Shown in pieces: positions 18,701 to 27,961 of a stretch of DNA of 29,014 nucleotides; position 1 is the first letter of the stretch, and each line of letters begins with the position of its first letter. This stretch comes from a virus. Position numbers and translations under genes: made by a program. The stretch spans positions 1 to 29,014 of the IMG/VR virus record IMGVR_UViG_3300030109_001380, one strand, 5' to 3'. The notes under the pieces are model-generated. The model was given only the letters and a program-made list of their open reading frames with translations. It had not been told where the DNA came from and did no database searches.

Positions 18701-20057
18701 TCAAAATTCTGCTTTAACTATAGAAAACAGTATAGTTAAAGTTATTAGAGGTATGTTATTTAACGGCGTAATTGAAACAAAACCGCAAAGCACGCTTATT
18801 CCAAGCGATATAAAAAAGGCATTACCCGGTCAATTTGAGGCAGGTCAACTTGTAGTAAATGAAAGAAAACTTAAAACTTTTATGAATAGATATAAAGCTG
18901 CTGCCGATCAAAATCCTAGAATAAAAGAATTGTTTGACGACATGAGCGATCCGCTTAAAGCTCAACAGGTTCTTGAAAGCCTTAAAAGGCGTGAGGGTAT
19001 ACCTGAAAAAGGAATACTTTCAATGGACGAAAGAATAGCTGAAAAAGATGCTTTGAGCGATATTCTTGGCGTAGACAGTCCTGTTTTCAGACTTACTCAA
19101 ATTTTAGAAAGCAAAGAGCCCCAAACTAAATTAGACAACCTTATAAAACAGGTTAATTTAATCAAGACTTCGGATATACCGGTAACGTATAAAGGCAAAA
19201 AGGTTCCGGCGAAAGAGGTGTTTGAACCTGCCGTCGGTGGTTTAATGACGTCTTTTATACAGGTTGCTCGAGACGCAAGTTACATAAAAGGCAAAGATAT
19301 TTTTGAAACAGGGGATCTTACACCGATACCTAGATATGACGCAAAAATATTCCGTCAAGTATTTTTTGAAACAGGAGAAGTTTTTCCTCAAATGGGAAGT
19401 TTACCTTCAATTGCAGATACTTTGTTAAAACAAAAAGTTATTGATAAAGCTAGGTATGACCAAATAGATAACGTTACGTTAGCTATGGAACGTATGCAAA
19501 ATCAACAAGAGTTTATGGAACTTTTGCCAGATATGTCAACAAAATCAAAACAGCTTTTTCAAAGGTTCGCCTCAAGGGTTTTTGGTGCGCAATTAGGGGC
19601 ACGTTTAGGCACGGGCACCATACAGGTTCCAGGATTTACTGCTGGATTAGCTGAAGATATTCTTATGAAATCGCCTAGCACAGCTTTGACTACTTTTATG
19701 AGTAAATTGTTTGAACCAGGCGGCTACGAAAAATTTGCAGAACTGCTTGAATCGACTGCAGAAGAATCAATGAAAAGACAACGTGGTCAAGCGTTCGAGA
19801 CTCCATTGTTAGTGCCACCACTAAAAGATTCTCCGTTAGCCGTTGCTGCTCCGGTAGAAGCAATCACTCGAGACAGGGAAGAAGAAAGAACGATCACGCC
19901 TCCACCACCACAGCTATCTCAGGCGTCACCGTCGGTAAATCCTATGCAGACCGCTAATCAGAGAGCACGCTACGCGGCTATGTTCCCACTTGATCCGGCT
20001 TCTTCACTTATTAGAGAACGTCAAGCACAGGGCATAGGAAGTCTTCCTAGACCTTAG
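15750..20057 (+). CDS. Giant virion protein, presumed ejection/internal protein (1435 residues)
   Basis: The largest gene in the window. Residues 85-135 form an Ala/Gly-rich hydrophobic, glycine-zipper-like stretch (ALTPGTALGAKIGTAINPG, then GTLIGGGIGFITAPLVASIV), which could insert in a membrane. The remainder is mainly soluble helix with a basic, Pro-rich linker near 600-640 (KTKRKSTAIPSILKPGIEPK). A Pro/Ser-rich tail follows that ends RYAAMFPLDPASSLIRERQA, a terminal phrase I recognise from related phage proteins. No lysozyme or transglycosylase motif is visible. It begins directly after the previous stop (TAAATG) and closes the late module. Size and context recall the large inner-core proteins of short-tailed phages; homology is untested. 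Confidence 0.68.
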   Translation: MVRKVDNFDLRGAFNYLVEDQDEGGMGLTRPQAESQIAQRLAKEVDFDYTAATEAGFNNEQIISKLTGIEDRGALSVLGEATARGAIGAIPEALALTPGTALGAKIGTAINPGLGTLIGGGIGFITAPLVASIVDQQVGLTKSASDFLLGEEEPVLPSDQPFREAGKVTGGVLSFSAALRRGLAKSTLGDVPTGQAGATLVDTGADFGSKKILANLRKYDPDAKTPLSLRALQATEDVATRMATRARAPGRDYYLRQEVPIATAFGLGAGIAEQVDPGDAMTSFLTSLGAGLVAPVSPLSRLVSGAAAKSAQAGQALRHPSETFQNILSNLRNKTESKARNDLIKLYEGIAKNAEAPGRARALADGVPYDPKIHSPDVDFTKINPGGAAEIIRASEEIVTGLVPGVDKLLTPGTIPVDPKTPGIESYFGVLRLQAEAMAKNPDLKREVSNSTQQAVALAAKTLENAIEVQDASLIAIHTKLFQEAQENFIGELLHNRLRTVTETLDKAEAKGKLEPGKGSEIIVREINKLESYARDIEKRLYDSELIDYLASVKPNFLIKGLNEDEAKAALQGRFMASDIKSADGKKALELIEEIKANIPKADPTLQRPPKAATKTKRKSTAIPSILKPGIEPKVPRIRDIVRNIDPDFDEMSELISSMGRDAKISRKKNPRTGLPLGIEILPSHRMKRGGESSIDGLMQKAIEEGYFPGYGINEYTAGPGGKVLSRDELYEALANNITKPEDQVRLDEYQNKVEIAADLQESLDKAGIKNKDIRGRTDDEIFELVADIDSGILPPRRMREQVGGFPKDMPAKERRRLDKELEAQTQAQASQIQYDPDIPAQIMTVGDAIRIRSLIGDALRDTVTKPSERRYLTRIRKNVLKDLLENTDLDETREALILANTFTKAKNDVFSRTKGGEMAKDLKYSDDNVFAENLLAAGRPNELGNRVTGLQKFGQFFEDQARELVKVGDPELTALVENVIPASQNSALTIENSIVKVIRGMLFNGVIETKPQSTLIPSDIKKALPGQFEAGQLVVNERKLKTFMNRYKAAADQNPRIKELFDDMSDPLKAQQVLESLKRREGIPEKGILSMDERIAEKDALSDILGVDSPVFRLTQILESKEPQTKLDNLIKQVNLIKTSDIPVTYKGKKVPAKEVFEPAVGGLMTSFIQVARDASYIKGKDIFETGDLTPIPRYDAKIFRQVFFETGEVFPQMGSLPSIADTLLKQKVIDKARYDQIDNVTLAMERMQNQQEFMELLPDMSTKSKQLFQRFASRVFGAQLGARLGTGTIQVPGFTAGLAEDILMKSPSTALTTFMSKLFEPGGYEKFAELLESTAEESMKRQRGQAFETPLLVPPLKDSPLAVAAPVEAITRDREEERTITPPPPQLSQASPSVNPMQTANQRARYAAMFPLDPASSLIRERQAQGIGSLPRP

Positions 20058-21496
20058 ATTAGCCACTCCCGGCTTTGTTCTCCCAATACTTCTTGAGCAA
20101 TATCAATTTTACCCTTTAAGGCAGCAAGTATTTTTTCATCAACCGTGTCCGGGCTTACTAAGTCTACGTAGGTTACGTGATTTTTTTGTCCTATGCGGTG
20201 GGCCCTGTCTTCTGATTGTATGCGTGTTTCTAAATCATAGCCGTTATTCCAATAGATTACGTTAGTTGCCGCAGTTAACGTCAAACCGTAACCACCTGTC
20301 TTGGGATTACCAACAAAAAAACGTAACGGATTTTCTTTGTCTTGAAAGTTTTTGACTATCTCTTGGCGTTTGTCTTGTGGCGTAGCTCCATAAAAAGCTT
20401 CCGCACTGTCCTCACCGTATCGTTCTTTTAACTTATTGACTATCCGTTCTAAATCATACACCCACGTAGCCCATATAATTACTTTGCCTGACATTTCATC
20501 AATGGTGCTCAGTAGTTCGTCTAAACGTTTATTTGGTATCTCTTGTATCTCACCATCATCTGTCTTTAAATGCCCGCAGCATATCTCTTGTAATCGCATT
20601 ATTTGTGTCAATACGCTAGTCGTAGTAGATAGCTCTCCTTTTTCTAAACGTGCGATAGCTAGTTTTTTCATCTGCACGTATGCGGATAACTGTTCTTTAC
20701 TCAACGGCACCCGCCTTGATGTATATATTTTCTCAGGTAAATCTAAACAATCTTCTTTTAAAACCCTGGAACTAAACGAGTCTAATTTACCGTGCAGTTC
20801 ATCTAAACGTTGATAGCCAGTAATTTCTTGGAAGCTACGCATACCCATAGCTCTTTTCCTAACAATTGCATAACGTGCTTGATATGCGAAGAAACTTTTA
20901 AATCCAAGCAGTTGCGGACTTAAAAAATCACATTGACTGAATAAATCCATAGGGTTCTTTGTAATTGGGGATCCTGTTAGTATGCGTTTGTATTTAGCCA
21001 GACTAGCCGCTTTCAACGCATTTTTTGTGCGTAACGCTTTGCGATTCTTTATTGCCGTGCTCTCGTCCATAATAAATAGGTTGTTGGGGTTCATCTTTAA
21101 AAACTTAAATGCACTGGACGCGCCTTTGACAGTAGATAAGGCTTCTACGTTCATAGCCAATATATGCAGATCAGTGTGTCCCGGATCGGCTAACTCGGTT
21201 AACGCTTCACGATACTTTTTAGTTATGTTGGGTTGCCACTGAACCATTTTAGAGTTTATGCGATCGGGCAAATGTTGTGGTATTTCTTTTTCGACCCAGT
21301 TTGCGAACACACCTTTTGGCGCAACAATGAGAACCGTATTAATGGCATTAACTTCGTATAATGCACCGAGAGTATCTATTGCAATCTTTGTTTTACCAGT
21401 CCCCATTTCAAGAAAAAGCGCGTGCTGCTTGGCTTTCCACGTTTTTTCAAATATCTTTTTTTGATGCTCATACGGCTTCGTTTTATATTTATACAT
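20054..21496 (-). CDS. SNF2-type ATP-dependent DNA helicase/translocase
   Basis: A 480-residue superfamily 2 protein with all core motifs: Walker A MGTGKTK (31-37), the Ia-like VLIVAPKGVFANWV, Walker B DEST (144-147) with following A-I-K-N typical of SNF2 enzymes, motif III LTGSPITKNP (173-182), motif V GYGLTLTAATNVIYW, and motif VI QSEDRAHRIGQ (427-437). It should use ATP to translocate on duplex DNA, and in phages it is thought to remodel replication or recombination intermediates. It is the only minus-strand gene, has GGAG eight bases before the ATG, and reads away from the replication genes through a shared promoter region. Its stop (TAA) and that of the giant virion gene (TAG) share TTAG. 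Confidence 0.93.
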   Translation of the reverse strand: MYKYKTKPYEHQKKIFEKTWKAKQHALFLEMGTGKTKIAIDTLGALYEVNAINTVLIVAPKGVFANWVEKEIPQHLPDRINSKMVQWQPNITKKYREALTELADPGHTDLHILAMNVEALSTVKGASSAFKFLKMNPNNLFIMDESTAIKNRKALRTKNALKAASLAKYKRILTGSPITKNPMDLFSQCDFLSPQLLGFKSFFAYQARYAIVRKRAMGMRSFQEITGYQRLDELHGKLDSFSSRVLKEDCLDLPEKIYTSRRVPLSKEQLSAYVQMKKLAIARLEKGELSTTTSVLTQIMRLQEICCGHLKTDDGEIQEIPNKRLDELLSTIDEMSGKVIIWATWVYDLERIVNKLKERYGEDSAEAFYGATPQDKRQEIVKNFQDKENPLRFFVGNPKTGGYGLTLTAATNVIYWNNGYDLETRIQSEDRAHRIGQKNHVTYVDLVSPDTVDEKILAALKGKIDIAQEVLGEQSREWLI

Positions 21497-21598: not shown

Positions 21599-22165
21599 AT
21601 GGAAAACGACTTTCTTTCACAATTAGAATCAGACGCAATCGCAACAGATTCTACCCCAAAAGATCAGGATTTGAACAGTGTCGCAAACATTGCCAAAGCT
21701 ATTCAAGATAAAGAGGATCTTTTAGCCGACTTAGAGAAACAAGTTAAGACGGTAAAGAAAGAACTTTTGAAACTCACTGATGAAGATTTACCGTCAATTT
21801 TACAAGAACTTGGAATGACTGGTTTTACATTAGATGATGGTTCTTCAATTTCAATCAAACCCACGTATGGCGCACATATTAAAGTTTCAGATAAAGAAGA
21901 AGCTTTTGCATGGTTGCGTAAAAACGATTTTGGGGACTTGATTAAAAATGTAGTGAGTTGCACTTTTGGACGCGGCGAAGACGAAACTGCTGTAGATTTC
22001 ATGGCTTTTGCCGAGAAAAGTGGTTACACACCGCAACAAAAGACAGATGTTCATTCACAGACACTCAAGGCGTGGGTCAGAGAGCGCGTGGAAAACGGCG
22101 ATAGTTTTCCTTCCGAGCTATTTGGCGCATACGTAGGACAACGTGCAATAATCAAGAGGAAATAG
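21599..22165 (+). CDS. First gene of the replication operon, coiled-coil protein of unknown function
   Basis: A 188-residue acidic protein. After a disordered start, residues 25-70 form a coiled coil (ANIAKAIQDKEDLLADLEKQ, VKTVKKELLKL), followed by a compact alpha/beta domain (ELGMTGFTLDDGSSISIKPT, EEAFAWLRKNDFGDLIKN). The C-terminus has TDVHSQTLKAWVRERVENG and ELFGAYVGQRAIIK, a phrase I recognise in a conserved phage family located next to ssDNA-binding genes (I recall it as DUF7173; to be confirmed). Function is unknown; a partner of the ssDNA-binding protein or of DNA ends is plausible. Shine-Dalgarno CGGAGA sits seven bases upstream of the ATG. Confidence 0.72.
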   Translation: MENDFLSQLESDAIATDSTPKDQDLNSVANIAKAIQDKEDLLADLEKQVKTVKKELLKLTDEDLPSILQELGMTGFTLDDGSSISIKPTYGAHIKVSDKEEAFAWLRKNDFGDLIKNVVSCTFGRGEDETAVDFMAFAEKSGYTPQQKTDVHSQTLKAWVRERVENGDSFPSELFGAYVGQRAIIKRK

Positions 22166-22167
22166 CA

Positions 22168-22944
22168 ATGGCTAGTAAAGAAGTATCAAAGAAAAAAGAC
22201 AGCAATGTCATACAGTTGGACGCTTCTATTTTTGAAGCAGACGCGGGTAAAGGCTTAGAAAACGTAGGTCAAGAGGACCTGGCTTTACCTTTTATTAAAA
22301 TATTGAGTGGACTAGATCCTGTATTAGATGATTTGGAAGAAGCAAGAAAAGGCGATATTTACAATACCGTTACAAATCAAATCTACAAAGGTAAAGAAGG
22401 CATTAAAGTTGTGCCTTGCACTTATCAAAGACGATTCATAGAATGGGCCCCGCGAGGTAGCGGAACCGGCGCACCTTTGAATATATTCACTCCAAACGAT
22501 CAAAGACCAAAAACCGAACGATCTCCAGACGATAACAGAGAATACGTTGTAGACGGAGACGGTAGCTATATCGAAGAAACGCATCAGCACTTCGTAGTAA
22601 TAATAGAACCTGATGGCACTTCGAGCACGGCTTTGATTGCAATGAAATCTACGCAACTTAAAAAGAGCCGTAAATGGAACTCAATGATTGCTTCACGCAG
22701 TATTGTTGGTGCAAACGGACCTTTCACACCGCCTAGATATTCTCATGTTTACTTACTAAAAACAGTAAGTGAGGAAAACTCGAAAGGCAGTTGGCATGGT
22801 TGGGACATATCTCTAGTAGGACAAGTAGAAGATATGGCGCTCTACGGTAACGCTAAAGGTTTTGCAGAGTCTATATCTACCGGTCAAGTTGAGGTAAAAC
22901 ACTCTCAGGAATCCACTGAAAGCGCTGATAACGCTCCTTTTTAA
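22168..22944 (+). CDS. Phage single-stranded-DNA-binding protein (SSB-like)
   Basis: A 258-residue protein with the layout of phage ssDNA-binding proteins: a flexible N-terminus, a core with LALPFIKILSGLDP, KGDIYNTVTNQIYKGKEGIK, VVPCTYQRRFIEWAPRGSGT and a Lys-rich STQLKKSRKWNSM segment, and an acidic Ser/Glu tail ending ADNAPF. The core phrases match a marine-phage family commonly annotated as ssDNA-binding; the acidic tip ending in Pro-Phe parallels bacterial SSB, where it recruits replication proteins. It would coat ssDNA at the fork. Neighbours are the coiled-coil gene two bases upstream and the primase downstream, after a hairpin. Confidence is moderate because an OB fold cannot be proven by eye. 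Confidence 0.75.
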   Translation: MASKEVSKKKDSNVIQLDASIFEADAGKGLENVGQEDLALPFIKILSGLDPVLDDLEEARKGDIYNTVTNQIYKGKEGIKVVPCTYQRRFIEWAPRGSGTGAPLNIFTPNDQRPKTERSPDDNREYVVDGDGSYIEETHQHFVVIIEPDGTSSTALIAMKSTQLKKSRKWNSMIASRSIVGANGPFTPPRYSHVYLLKTVSEENSKGSWHGWDISLVGQVEDMALYGNAKGFAESISTGQVEVKHSQESTESADNAPF

Positions 22945-22989: not shown

Positions 22990-24531
22990 ATGTCTAATTA
23001 CAAACAATTTTCGTCTATTTTTGATGGCCTACGTGCGGCTTATGGCACCTATAAGGTAGACAAGAAACAATTAAATGGATCAAAGACCACCGGGAAAGCG
23101 GGCGTTGTTCGCGAAACACGCACCAAAGAACTTTGGGAAGGTCACTTGTCCGGTAAGGGACAATCCGTTGGAATTATTCCAATCAATGAAGATAACAATT
23201 GTAAGTGGGGTTGTGTCGATATAGATCAATACAACTTCGATCACAAAACACTAATCGAAAAAATTCGTAAGCTAAAACTACCTTTGGTAGTTTGTCGTTC
23301 AAAGTCCGGTGGGGCGCACGTTTTTGTTTTTACATCTGACTGGGTATCTGCAAAGAATATTCAAGAAGTGTTAAGACACGTTGCGTCCCTACTGGGTTAT
23401 GGAGAATCAGAGATATTTCCAAAGCAAGTCAAGCTTAATCTCGAACGTGGCGACGTAGGCAACTTCCTTAATATGCCTTATTACGATCACGAAGACGGTT
23501 TACGTTACGCAATAAAGGACGACGGCACAGCCGCAACCTTAGAAGAATTTTTTGATATGTATAAAGAGTATGTCTGCACACCAGAACAACTCTCAGCAAT
23601 AATGATGGAAGAAGATAAGTTTCAGCCAATAGAAAACGGGCCACCTTGTTTACAAGTATTGTGCAAAGAAAAAGTTTCCGAGGGCGGTCGTAACAATGGG
23701 TTATTTAATATTGGTGTATATCTTAGAAAAGCTTTTCCTGATTCCTGGGAAACAGAAATATTAAACTACAATATGCAGTATTTAGATCCACCTCTGCCTT
23801 TGAACGAGGTAAATATTGTAGCCAAGCAGTTACACAAAAAAGATTATGCGTATAAATGTAAAGACGCCCCTATAAACTCTTATTGTAACGCTGAGTTATG
23901 TAAAACCAGAAGATTTGGTATTGACGCGGCGGTATCGGGAGTGATGATAGCCAATTTAAGAAAATACAATTCACAACCGCCTGTTTGGTTTGTTGATGTA
24001 AACGGGCAACCCTTAGAGTTAGATACCGAAGGTTTGATGAATCAAGCAACTTTTCAGCGTGCGTGCGTAGAGCAGTTAAATTTTATGCCTAGAAGTGTCA
24101 CAAAACCACTTTGGGAAGGTCGTATGAACACCTTGTTAGATGAAATGACACAGAACGAGGGAAGTATAGTAGAAGTAAGTGCAGACGCTAGTGTTAACGG
24201 GCGTTTCTATGCGTTCCTGGAGGAGTTTTGCACTTCTTTACAGCAAGCTCAAGATAGAGAAGAAATACTTCTCAGACGGCCATATACTGACGAGAAAGAG
24301 GAAAGCACATTTTTTAGGTTAGTTGATTTAGAGAATCATTTAATCAAAGCAAACTTTAAAAACTATAAAACACATCAGATAGCACAGCGTTTACGGGATA
24401 TAAACGGAGAAGCTACGCAAATAAACATAAAGGGTAAAACCGTGCGTGTTTGGGTGATTCCTTCATTTAATCGTGTAAACCCGGACATACCACCGCCTGA
24501 TTTTGGCAATCAGGACGAGGTTCCGTTTTAA
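22990..24531 (+). CDS. Archaeo-eukaryotic-type (AEP) DNA primase, TOTE-like
   Basis: A 513-residue primase of the archaeo-eukaryotic superfamily. The catalytic motif I is CVDID (D77, D79), motif II is S106-GGAH110-VFVF, and motif III should lie in the following EIFPKQVKLNLERGDVGNFL region. This pattern matches AEP domains first described in TOTE conflict systems and many phages. Residues 228-290 look like a PriCT helical domain (EGGRNNGLFNIGVYLRKAFP), followed by a three-Cys cluster (C290, C299, C304, in YKC...YCNAELCKTRRFG) that may bind metal. A winged-helix-like C-terminal part (about 440-492) precedes an acidic tail ending NQDEVPF. It should synthesise primers for the polymerase encoded downstream. 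Its stop overlaps the helicase start (TAATG). Confidence 0.85.
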   Translation: MSNYKQFSSIFDGLRAAYGTYKVDKKQLNGSKTTGKAGVVRETRTKELWEGHLSGKGQSVGIIPINEDNNCKWGCVDIDQYNFDHKTLIEKIRKLKLPLVVCRSKSGGAHVFVFTSDWVSAKNIQEVLRHVASLLGYGESEIFPKQVKLNLERGDVGNFLNMPYYDHEDGLRYAIKDDGTAATLEEFFDMYKEYVCTPEQLSAIMMEEDKFQPIENGPPCLQVLCKEKVSEGGRNNGLFNIGVYLRKAFPDSWETEILNYNMQYLDPPLPLNEVNIVAKQLHKKDYAYKCKDAPINSYCNAELCKTRRFGIDAAVSGVMIANLRKYNSQPPVWFVDVNGQPLELDTEGLMNQATFQRACVEQLNFMPRSVTKPLWEGRMNTLLDEMTQNEGSIVEVSADASVNGRFYAFLEEFCTSLQQAQDREEILLRRPYTDEKEESTFFRLVDLENHLIKANFKNYKTHQIAQRLRDINGEATQINIKGKTVRVWVIPSFNRVNPDIPPPDFGNQDEVPF

Positions 24532-26042
24532 TGTTTCGTATTTTTGGTCCACCCGGGACCGGAAAAACAACAACATTACTAAATCTAGTTGATAAAGAGT
24601 TAGAGCGAGGAACGCCCTCATCAGAGATAGCGTTTTTGGCTTTTACTCGTAAAGCAGCGAGAGAGGCAAAAGAACGTGCGTGCCGTAGGTTTGGACTAGA
24701 CGCTAAACAAGATTTACCTTATTTTCGCACACTACATTCTTTGGCTTTTCGTTTAGTCGGACTAACGACCGAACAATTAATGGGAACAGAGCATTACAGA
24801 GAGATAGAGAACCGTATCGGCTTTGATCTATCGGGAAGCACTAATATAGACGAAGAACACACTGCGTCTATAAAAAGAGAGTCAGAGATTTTACGGCTAA
24901 TAACATTAGCGCGTTTAAGAAGAACAACGCTACATTCCGAATACAATAGAAGCAACGTTAAATACAGTTGGACTGAAGTTAATTATGTAGCCAATGCCGT
25001 AGAGCAATACAAAAAATCAAATGGCTTACACGATTACACGGATATGTTAGAACTGTTTGTGGCTAAAGGTCGCACGATATGTCCACCTTTGCGATTGTGT
25101 TTGTTAGACGAGGCCCAGGATTTATCTCCGTTACAATGGGAGATCGCACACCTGTTAGACTCTAAATCAGATAAGATGTATTGCGCCGGAGACGACGATC
25201 AAGCTATCTATGACTTTGCCGGTGCAGACGTAGATCATTTTATAAATTTACCGGGCGGTGCAGAAATATTAGAAACAAGCTATCGCGTTCCGGCTTCTGT
25301 GCATCAACTGGCAATGGGGTTATCTTCAAGAATACAACGCCGTTTTCCTAAAAATTATGTGCCAAAAACAGATATGGGTTCGGTGCAAAGAATTTACTCC
25401 CCAGAAAGTTTAGATTTTAGTAAAGGCGACTGGTTGATCTTGAGTCAAGCTAATTATCAAATTAATCCTGTATCTTCTATTTTGAAGCAAAGTGGGTATT
25501 ATTTTGAAAGATCGGGCTATCCGTCTGTATCTCCTAAAGTAAGCACGGCTTTGTTGGCTTGGAAGAAGTTACAAAATAATGACGTCATAGACGTCGGTTC
25601 GGCACAAGTTTTGTATTCATTTATGCGTGGCAATGGCGTGCGTGTAGAACGTGGGTTTAAAACACTGAAAGCGGGAGAAAATGTTTTTTTAAGTTTAGAT
25701 CAATTACAAAAAGATCACGGCTTATTGGCTACGGCAGATATGGATTGGCAAACGGCACTAGATCGTTTACCTGATATGGACCGAGCATACATCAACGCAT
25801 TACTGCGAAGGGGCGAAGATTTAGAAGAAATGCCCCGCATCAAATTATCCACGATTCACGGAGCAAAAGGCGGAGAAGCAGAGAACGTAGTAGTGTTTAG
25901 CGATTTGACCGCCGCGGCTGATGAATCTTTACAGATCAGTCCAGACACCTTGCACCGTGTCTTTTATGTTGCCGTGACTCGAACTAAAAAGAATCTTTAC
26001 ATTGTAGAGCCAGAAATTTATCAAAGGAGTTATAACTTATAA
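24531..26042 (+). CDS. UvrD/Rep-like superfamily 1 DNA helicase
   Basis: A 503-residue SF1 helicase, somewhat short compared with UvrD or Rep (about 670-720). Motifs: Walker A FGPPGTGKTTT (5-15), Ia FLAFTRKAAREAKERA, motif Ic/TxGx-like YFRTLHSLAFRL, Walker B LLDEAQDLSPLQ (D193-E194), motif III AGDDDQAIYDFAGAD, motif IV ETSYRVP, motif V LSTIHGAKGGEAENVV, motif VI VAVTRTKKNLYI (R484). It should unwind DNA 3'-to-5' if it behaves like its family. The ATG overlaps the primase stop and its own stop overlaps the polymerase start, so primase, helicase and polymerase form a coupled set. It may supply fork unwinding in the absence of a visible hexameric helicase (inference). Confidence 0.92.
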   Translation: MFRIFGPPGTGKTTTLLNLVDKELERGTPSSEIAFLAFTRKAAREAKERACRRFGLDAKQDLPYFRTLHSLAFRLVGLTTEQLMGTEHYREIENRIGFDLSGSTNIDEEHTASIKRESEILRLITLARLRRTTLHSEYNRSNVKYSWTEVNYVANAVEQYKKSNGLHDYTDMLELFVAKGRTICPPLRLCLLDEAQDLSPLQWEIAHLLDSKSDKMYCAGDDDQAIYDFAGADVDHFINLPGGAEILETSYRVPASVHQLAMGLSSRIQRRFPKNYVPKTDMGSVQRIYSPESLDFSKGDWLILSQANYQINPVSSILKQSGYYFERSGYPSVSPKVSTALLAWKKLQNNDVIDVGSAQVLYSFMRGNGVRVERGFKTLKAGENVFLSLDQLQKDHGLLATADMDWQTALDRLPDMDRAYINALLRRGEDLEEMPRIKLSTIHGAKGGEAENVVVFSDLTAAADESLQISPDTLHRVFYVAVTRTKKNLYIVEPEIYQRSYNL

Positions 26043-27961
26043 TGAAAAAAGAAACCAGATTACAGTTTCCCATGTTTGGGACAAGCACCGATTGGACTCC
26101 GCCCGTAGACTTACCCGATTTAAGTGACGCTAAAGAAATAGCCATAGACCTCGAAACACGCGACCCGAACCTTAAAACCAATGGTCCAGGGTGGCCTACT
26201 GGGGACGGTGAGGTAGTGGGCGTTGCAGTAGCTACGGCAGACTGGAAGGGGTATTTGCCTTTCAGTCACTTAGGCGGTGGAAATTTAGATCGACGCATCA
26301 TTTCACGTTGGTTGACTAAAATTCTTGCCGGAGACGGCGATAAAATTATGCACAATGCTCAGTATGACGCCGGGTGGCTACGTCAAATGGGCGTGCCTAT
26401 CAATGGTCGCATCATAGATACCATGATTACAGCGTCCTTATTGGACGAAAATAGGTTTAGTTACTCATTGAACGCACTCTCCTTTGATTATTTAGGCAAA
26501 ACTAAGTCCGAAAAGCTGTTAGTAGACGCCGCAAGGGACTTTGGCGTAGATCCAAAAGCAGAAATGTGGAAGCTACCGGCCCCGTATGTGGGTCCTTACG
26601 CAGAAATGGACGCAGAACTCACACTCGAGCTATGGCAGTTATTTAAAACACAGATAGCCGTCGAGGATTTAAGTTCGGTGTGGGAATTAGAAACGGAATT
26701 GTTGCCGTGCCTTATAGATATGACCTGGCGTGGTGTTCGAGTAGATGTAGATCGAGCAGAAAGAACTAAACAAGCTATATTAAAAAGAGAAAAAGAAGCA
26801 CTGGCACAAATTAAAAAGTTGGCGGGGTTTGAAGTAGAAGTATGGGCTGCGGCTTCTTTGAAAAAAGCATTTGATAAAATTGGCATAAGCTATCCCAGAA
26901 CTGAGAAGGGTGCCCCGAGTTTTACTAAAGCGTTTCTAACTGAGCACAAGCATGAGTTTCCACGTTTGGTGGTAAAAGCACGTGAGTTAAATAAGATACA
27001 GGGCACGTTTATAAATACGATACTCAAGCACGTTGGTAAAGATAAGCGTATTCATAGTCACATCAACCAGTTACGTTCGGATAATGGCGGAACCGTGTCG
27101 GGACGCATATCAATGAACAATCCAAACCTTCAACAAATCCCGGCTCGCGACCCAGAACTGGGACCAATGATACGCAGTTTGTTTTTGCCTGAAGAAGACG
27201 AACAGTGGGCGGCGATAGATTTCTCGCAACAGGAACCACGGATCTTGGTGCATTACGCCTCGGTCTTATCTGATTGGAAGGGCGGTGGTTTAGAAGGTGT
27301 AGATGAATTTGTAGACGGTTATAAGAACAATCCAGATATGGACTTTCACACAATGGTTGCAGAAATGGCTGATATTCCTAGAAAAAGTGCCAAGACTATT
27401 AATTTAGCCATGATGTATGGCATGGGCGTTACCAAGCTATCGCACCAGTTAGACATCAGTTTAGACGAAGCAAAAGACCTGACTAAGCAATACCACAGTC
27501 GCGTGCCATTTGTTAAACAATTAATGCAAGGCGTATCGAGAAGATTAGAAGACGCGCGATCTAACGGAAGTGTGCGCTCTTTGAAGGGCAGAAAGTGCAG
27601 ATTTGATTTATGGGAACCAAAAGGGTTTGAAATGAAAAAAGCGTTGCCAAAAGAAGAAGCACTGGCAACCTATGGACAAACTACACAATTAAAACGTGCA
27701 TTTACATACAAAGCACTTAACCGATTAATCCAGGCAAGTGCCGCAGATATGACAAAACAAGCTATGGTTAACCTTTATAATCAAGGGTTTACGCCACTTT
27801 TGCAGATACATGATGAACTTGATTGCTCGGTAAAAGACTTGGAAGAAGCACAAAAGATTTCGGGAATAATGGAAACGGCTCTGGAATTAAAAGTTCCCAG
27901 TAAATGTGACATTGACCTCGGACCAAGTTGGGGAGAGGCGAAAGAAATAAAATCTGTTTGA
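26042..27961 (+). CDS. DNA polymerase I-type (family A) replicative polymerase with 3'-5' exonuclease
   Basis: A 639-residue polymerase lacking the 5'-3' nuclease domain, as usual in phages. Proofreading motifs are IDLET (D36, E38), HNAQYDAGW (D109) and YAEMD (Y186, D190). Polymerase motif A is DFSQQEPR (393-400), motif B is RKSAKTINLAMMYG (447-460, with R447, K451, Y459), motif C is HDE (590-592). The residue matching E. coli Phe762 is Leu455. It copies the phage genome using primers from the upstream AEP primase. The start overlaps the helicase stop (TAATG). The stop codon TGA lies within the -35 box of the next promoter. No T7-like thioredoxin-binding insertion is evident. Confidence 0.96.
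   Translation: MKKETRLQFPMFGTSTDWTPPVDLPDLSDAKEIAIDLETRDPNLKTNGPGWPTGDGEVVGVAVATADWKGYLPFSHLGGGNLDRRIISRWLTKILAGDGDKIMHNAQYDAGWLRQMGVPINGRIIDTMITASLLDENRFSYSLNALSFDYLGKTKSEKLLVDAARDFGVDPKAEMWKLPAPYVGPYAEMDAELTLELWQLFKTQIAVEDLSSVWELETELLPCLIDMTWRGVRVDVDRAERTKQAILKREKEALAQIKKLAGFEVEVWAAASLKKAFDKIGISYPRTEKGAPSFTKAFLTEHKHEFPRLVVKARELNKIQGTFINTILKHVGKDKRIHSHINQLRSDNGGTVSGRISMNNPNLQQIPARDPELGPMIRSLFLPEEDEQWAAIDFSQQEPRILVHYASVLSDWKGGGLEGVDEFVDGYKNNPDMDFHTMVAEMADIPRKSAKTINLAMMYGMGVTKLSHQLDISLDEAKDLTKQYHSRVPFVKQLMQGVSRRLEDARSNGSVRSLKGRKCRFDLWEPKGFEMKKALPKEEALATYGQTTQLKRAFTYKALNRLIQASAADMTKQAMVNLYNQGFTPLLQIHDELDCSVKDLEEAQKISGIMETALELKVPSKCDIDLGPSWGEAKEIKSV

Follow-up and report, generated by a model that had tools for sequence, protein, structure and literature searches.

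A conserved Pro-Phe tip on a phage primase that tends to match the tip of the adjacent gp34-like protein

We analyzed a viral DNA stretch of 29,014 nucleotides (IMG/VR record IMGVR_UViG_3300030109_001380, positions 1 to 29,014; the window), in which a primase gene codes for a protein whose tail resembles that of bacterial single-stranded DNA-binding protein (SSB). The open reading frame (ORF) at 22990-24531 on the plus strand encodes 513 amino acids and matched the archaeo-eukaryotic primase (AEP) family AEP-TOTE of Pfam (PF22548; 1.2e-13, 51.7 bits, above the cutoff of 27) as well as phrog_21866 of PHROGs, labelled "primase" (2.4e-92). Its solved relatives in the PDB are 7nqd and 7nqf (E 2e-11), from the CRISPR-associated primase-polymerases (CAPP) and TOTE AEP primases. 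The DxD and SxH-type catalytic motifs are present and conserved in 76 sequences, with D77, D79, S104, K105, S106, G108, and H110 invariant and the region S104-K-S-G-G-H110 kept. By these sequence matches, the ORF is identified as a TOTE/CAPP-type AEP primase. Its catalytic AEP domain is homologous to that of 7nqd and 7nqf, whereas its tail tip lies outside the matched region and the gene sits in a phage replication context.

Positions 24490-24531 code for residues 501-513 of the primase, PPPDFGNQDEVPF, followed by the stop codon, which confirms the acidic Pro-Phe tail that a sequence-only reading of this DNA had pointed out. The tip E-V-P-F comprises residues 510-513 (24517-24528, plus strand), and the linker and tip together span residues 492-513 (24463-24528, plus strand). 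In the AlphaFold2 (AF2) model of the primase (m76fdc131d2b5), there was no strand or helix after residue 491, and the predicted local distance difference test (pLDDT) scores of successive blocks over residues 491-513 fell from 75 to 65 and 59. The tail is therefore predicted to be flexible, with the tip outside the fold, as the earlier reading had required. In the window clade, defined as 75 primases dereplicated at 95% and each at least 60% identical to the window primase, the terminal residue was Phe in 74 of 75 and the penultimate residue was Pro in 70 of 75. Column entropy was 0.24 and 0.14 bits at P512 and F513, against about 1.8-3.0 bits in most linker columns from 494 to 509, with P503 and F505 as the exceptions. 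The expectation of a conserved tip behind a non-conserved linker was thus largely borne out. Separately, P503-x-F505 (24496-24504), 8-10 residues from the end of the primase, forms a second conserved spot (P in 44/51, F in 43/51) within the variable linker.

The window primase ending DEVPF has the features of the SSB C-terminal tip (SSB-Ct), namely a C-terminal Phe, a penultimate Pro, and preceding acidic residues. As in bacterial SSB (DDDIPF), a disordered linker precedes an acidic-x-Pro-Phe sequence at the extreme end. In contrast to SSB-Ct, this tip sits on a primase and on a PF23977 protein, the last six residues of the window primase include just two acidic ones, and homologues lose the Pro and the Phe. 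The tip was conserved within the PF clade only and not across the whole primase family, in which clades ending in IV, EL, EF, KFRT, and DGEA occur. Homologues lacking the Phe tip, which the sequence-only reading had named as evidence against itself, do exist in the KFRT, DGEA, and IV clades.

All four Pro codons (CCG 36, CCA 13, CCT 11, CCC 10) and both Phe codons (TTT 40, TTC 34) were used at the tip in the window clade, indicating that the amino acids are conserved beyond the DNA alone. Judging from this codon variation, the tips are under selection at the amino acid level. The tip could instead be a by-product of gene overlap, with Shine-Dalgarno and stop/start signals in the last codons constraining the C-terminus at the RNA level. 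The TAATG stop/start overlap with the next gene was present in 34 of 75 window-clade primases, and the Glu510 codon shares bases with a Shine-Dalgarno-like GAGG (24517-24520, plus strand) of the helicase gene, whose start is at 24531. At position -4, the Glu codon was GAG rather than GAA in 53 of 57 cases. Because this GAG doubles as part of the GAGG of the overlapping gene, the acidic position is partly confounded, and an RNA-level contribution was retained for part of the acidic residue. However, Pro and Phe stayed fixed while their codons varied, so a purely RNA-level cause was rejected for both, and the neighboring gene ends in the same tip yet lies 45 bases from the next gene in the window. 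Overlap as the explanation of the tip is very improbable.

A PF ending was found in only 2 of the 25 window genes, the primase gene and the gene immediately before it; two adjacent PF-ending genes among 25 are more than expected by chance. The neighbor (22168-22944, plus strand) matched PF23977 (Pam3 gp34-like; Pfam, 5.1e-63) and is referred to here as gp34. It ends in ADNAPF (22924-22941, plus strand), as had been noted from the sequence, and in the window clade this tip is also conserved (P in 59/64, F in 60/64). The binding role that the same reading gave it stands less firmly, as PF23977 is without a function label in Pfam or PHROGs; gp34 is probably an ssDNA-binding, SSB-like protein. Its AF2 model (pLDDT 87.6) showed an OB-like strand/helix order, b-b-b-a-b-b, with a low-confidence tail (pLDDT below 50 at residues 249-252 and 254-256). 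The putative oligonucleotide-binding (OB) fold is suggested by strand order: Foldseek retrieved no significant match for the model in the PDB (best E 0.018; TM at most 0.25 among the matches listed), while one match in BFVD was named SSB (2.2e-4). Like the T7-type phage SSBs (DUF2815, Enc34 ORF6), gp34 is a phage protein predicted to have a beta-rich core, followed by a C-terminal tail of low-confidence structure. In contrast to them, the PF23977 profile had no PDB match in a sequence search, and the hallmark helix after strand 2 of T7-type SSBs (PMC5686142) is absent from the predicted gp34 order.

Relatives of the primase are frequent in IMG/VR, with 535 loci in our data set, of which 530 contained the full C-terminus and 468 also contained gp34. 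In these 468 pairs, the gp34 tip was nearly always related to the primase tip of the same genome. The two proteins tended to change together: in the window clade both end in PF, and other pairings (primase with gp34) were NF or HF with PY, EF with EY or EF, EL or EI with EM or EL, and IV with IV. Matched tips unlike SSB were also found (primase/gp34: ENIV/QDIV, EDIV/EDIV, EPDL/EPEL, KSEF/GGEF, KAEF/HSEF, EAVF/KEVF). With relatedness ignored, the penultimate class agreed in 68 of 103 clusters (36.4 expected) and the terminal class in 77 of 103 (59.5 expected), and none of 5000 shuffles reached either value. Pagel likelihood-ratio tests on the primase tree gave p=0.004 for penultimate Pro, p=0.05 for terminal aromatic, and p=0.12 for penultimate acidic residues. 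The phylogeny-corrected support for tip matching is suggestive.

In phage T7, used as a control, the SSB gp2.5 ends in DEDGDF and the primase-helicase gp4 ends in SNDTDF. The A-family polymerase gp5 has basic patches to which the acidic tails of gp4 bind (PMC12593628), and deletion of the gp4 tail abolishes cooperative binding (PMC8835902). As with the primase and the putative SSB here, the SSB and primase of one phage bear matching acidic, Phe-ended tails and are accompanied by an A-family polymerase. On the other hand, T7 gp4 is a fused primase-helicase and not an AEP primase, gp2.5 gave no sequence match to PF23977 in the PDB search, the tips of the window family mostly have Pro as the penultimate residue and change from lineage to lineage, and binding to a polymerase would be by analogy only. 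Searches of an open-access library turned up no AEP primase whose tail resembles that of SSB, in line with the suggestion that none had been described; the suggestion needs narrowing in one respect, as the SSB and primase-helicase of T7 visibly share an acidic-Phe tip.

We consider it slightly better than an even call that the primase tail is a phage-internal docking tag of the T7 kind, copied on both primase and gp34, but here on an AEP primase. The flexible C-terminal tail of the primase would carry the same kind of tip as gp34, and a phage-encoded partner would recognize, on both tails, the hydrophobic last residue together with acidic residues close by. Such reading might hold the primase at gp34-coated ssDNA and the replisome, or allow hand-off within them, by analogy with the tails of gp2.5 and gp4 and the T7 DNA polymerase. 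The tips tend to drift together between lineages (PF, EF/EY, EL/EM, and IV). Binding itself, the reader (candidates being the A-family polymerase, the SNF2 or UvrD helicase, and the gp34 surface), and any effect on priming are inferred.

Several results weigh against this phage-internal tag. The independent-pairs test for terminal aromatic residues gave about 2 same-way and 0 opposite pairs, which is not significant, the events being too few. The sharing of a tip by the primase and the putative SSB of one phage, found elsewhere, breaks down in two clades. In the HTVC023P clade (about 60 loci), the primase ends in GKFRT and gp34 in VPF, so that the gp34 tip was kept and the primase tip lost; in Nanhaivirus, the primase ends in DGEA and gp34 in EVPF, and the primase tip was likewise lost. 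Locus L467 and a few single loci are further exceptions. In addition, gp34 keeps its terminal Phe in phages YuA, FoX7, MyoSmar, and Pluto, where the annotation of the fetched region includes no AEP primase. In the HTVC023P clade (L088:1361-2926, relatives L396-L465), we also observed that the primase end is MDDDFHTGKFRT, that the GKFRT ending is conserved in most of the roughly 60 loci, and that the HTVC023P primase overlaps the next gene by 35 bases, with an acidic-Phe stretch 7 residues before its end.

The sequence-only reading had proposed a host target instead, in which the tip copies SSB-Ct and docks the primase on host proteins such as PriA, RecQ, RecO, or chi, or puts it in competition with SSB for these proteins; DnaG would be a further partner of this kind. 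The E/D-x-P-F tip of the window clade fits the SSB-Ct form, and the pockets that bind E. coli SSB-Ct (DDDIPF) have a basic rim and form a salt bridge with the carboxylate of the terminal Phe (PMC5872125). However, homologue tips drift together with gp34 into IV, EL, and EF. HTVC027P (IV/IV) and HTVC023P (KFRT/VPF) infect the same Pelagibacter strain, HTCC1062, with different primase/gp34 tips. In relatives from Acinetobacter, Pseudomonas, and Salmonella, a separate small SSB-like protein ends in DDDLPF or DDDIPF (Acinetobacter phage Bhz9, L085:18742-19053; Pseudomonas phage PSA28, L086:17667-17993; Salmonella phage PMBT28, L087:18108-18449), while SEF is the primase ending in these phages. PMBT28, with DDDIPF on the SSB-like protein and KSEF on the primase, and PSA28 are direct examples. 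PHROGs labels two of these three proteins as SSB, and the PSA28 protein matched residues 121-177, the tail end, of the NCBI SSB model PRK09010 (1.9e-7). Among the annotated proteins of HTVC027P and Bhz9, listed nearly in full, no third tip-bearing protein was found, and the separate SSB of Bhz9 has a different tip. Docking on host SSB partners is therefore not favored and appears unlikely, although cross-binding of the PF-clade tip to these partners is possible. The differing tips on one host, the DDDIPF and DDDLPF proteins beside SEF primases, and the T7 precedent favor a phage-internal reader. As a separate observation, the last residues of the PSA28 SSB-like protein, NEPPMNFDDDIPF, are similar to the tail of E. 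coli SSB.

Alternatively, the primase tail might dock directly on gp34, whose own tail would occupy its DNA-binding surface, the primase tail being a second copy. The primase would then be recruited to gp34-coated DNA or would loosen gp34 at priming sites. The primase almost never occurs without gp34 (in loci of at least 9 kb, gp34 accompanied every primase outside the EF/EL clade and 59 of 63 inside it), gp34 also occurs in phages with no AEP primase annotated nearby, and the primase tips tend to covary with those of gp34. In crystals of T7-type SSBs, the acidic tails are found inserted into neighboring molecules (PMC5686142), which makes the surface of gp34 itself a serious candidate reader. 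Against direct docking, the putative gp34 OB fold comes from strand order with nothing significant in Foldseek against the PDB, the tail of gp34 was not confidently placed in its AF2 model, and some clades have the gp34 tip but no primase tip. We regard this explanation as rather improbable.

The phage-internal tag could also be extended, tentatively and with some doubt, to a family-wide tail code. The primase and SSB-like tips would evolve to match one phage reader, the code having switched at least 2-3 times (from PF to IV and EF/EL) and possibly giving natural, mutually orthogonal docking pairs, while host-type SSB tails are kept on another protein. If the tag is real, it would carry the shared-tail principle of T7 over to replication built on an AEP-type primase and the widespread PF23977 family. 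It also suggests that an SSB-like role is likely for PF23977, and the PF, EF, EL, and IV tips would serve as natural variants for finding the reader and probing the orthogonality of the code.

Among the genes around gp34 and the primase are the other candidate readers, namely the two helicases and the A-family polymerase. These genes code for an SNF2-type helicase (20054-21496, minus strand; Pfam, 9.7e-26), a DUF7307 protein (Pam3 gp33-like; 21599-22165, plus strand; Pfam, 4.7e-31) present in almost every long related locus, a UvrD-like helicase starting on the TAATG of the primase stop codon (24531-26042, plus strand; Pfam, 4.7e-29), and an A-family DNA polymerase (26042-27961, plus strand; Pfam, 6.3e-62), a candidate by analogy with T7 gp5. 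In long loci, these genes lie beside gp34 and the primase in nearly all tip classes, so presence or absence singles out no reader. The A-family polymerase was found in most long loci, and in Nanhaivirus R5C it is annotated elsewhere in the genome. Loss of the primase tip through absence of this polymerase in Nanhaivirus was considered and rejected, as polymerase A is annotated in R5C and, in the HTVC023P clade, the polymerase is present although the primase tip is not. Three of YuA, FoX7, MyoSmar, and Pluto carry a DNA polymerase III (Pol III)-type enzyme. The neighborhood of SNF2 helicase, DUF7307-like protein, and PF23977 (20054-22944 in the window) is conserved with A-family and, by annotation, Pol III-type polymerases. 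A hypothetical protein of Xanthomonas phage FoX7 (L538:12718-13479) ends in PIANF, and the gp34-like protein of this phage ends in ADNF.
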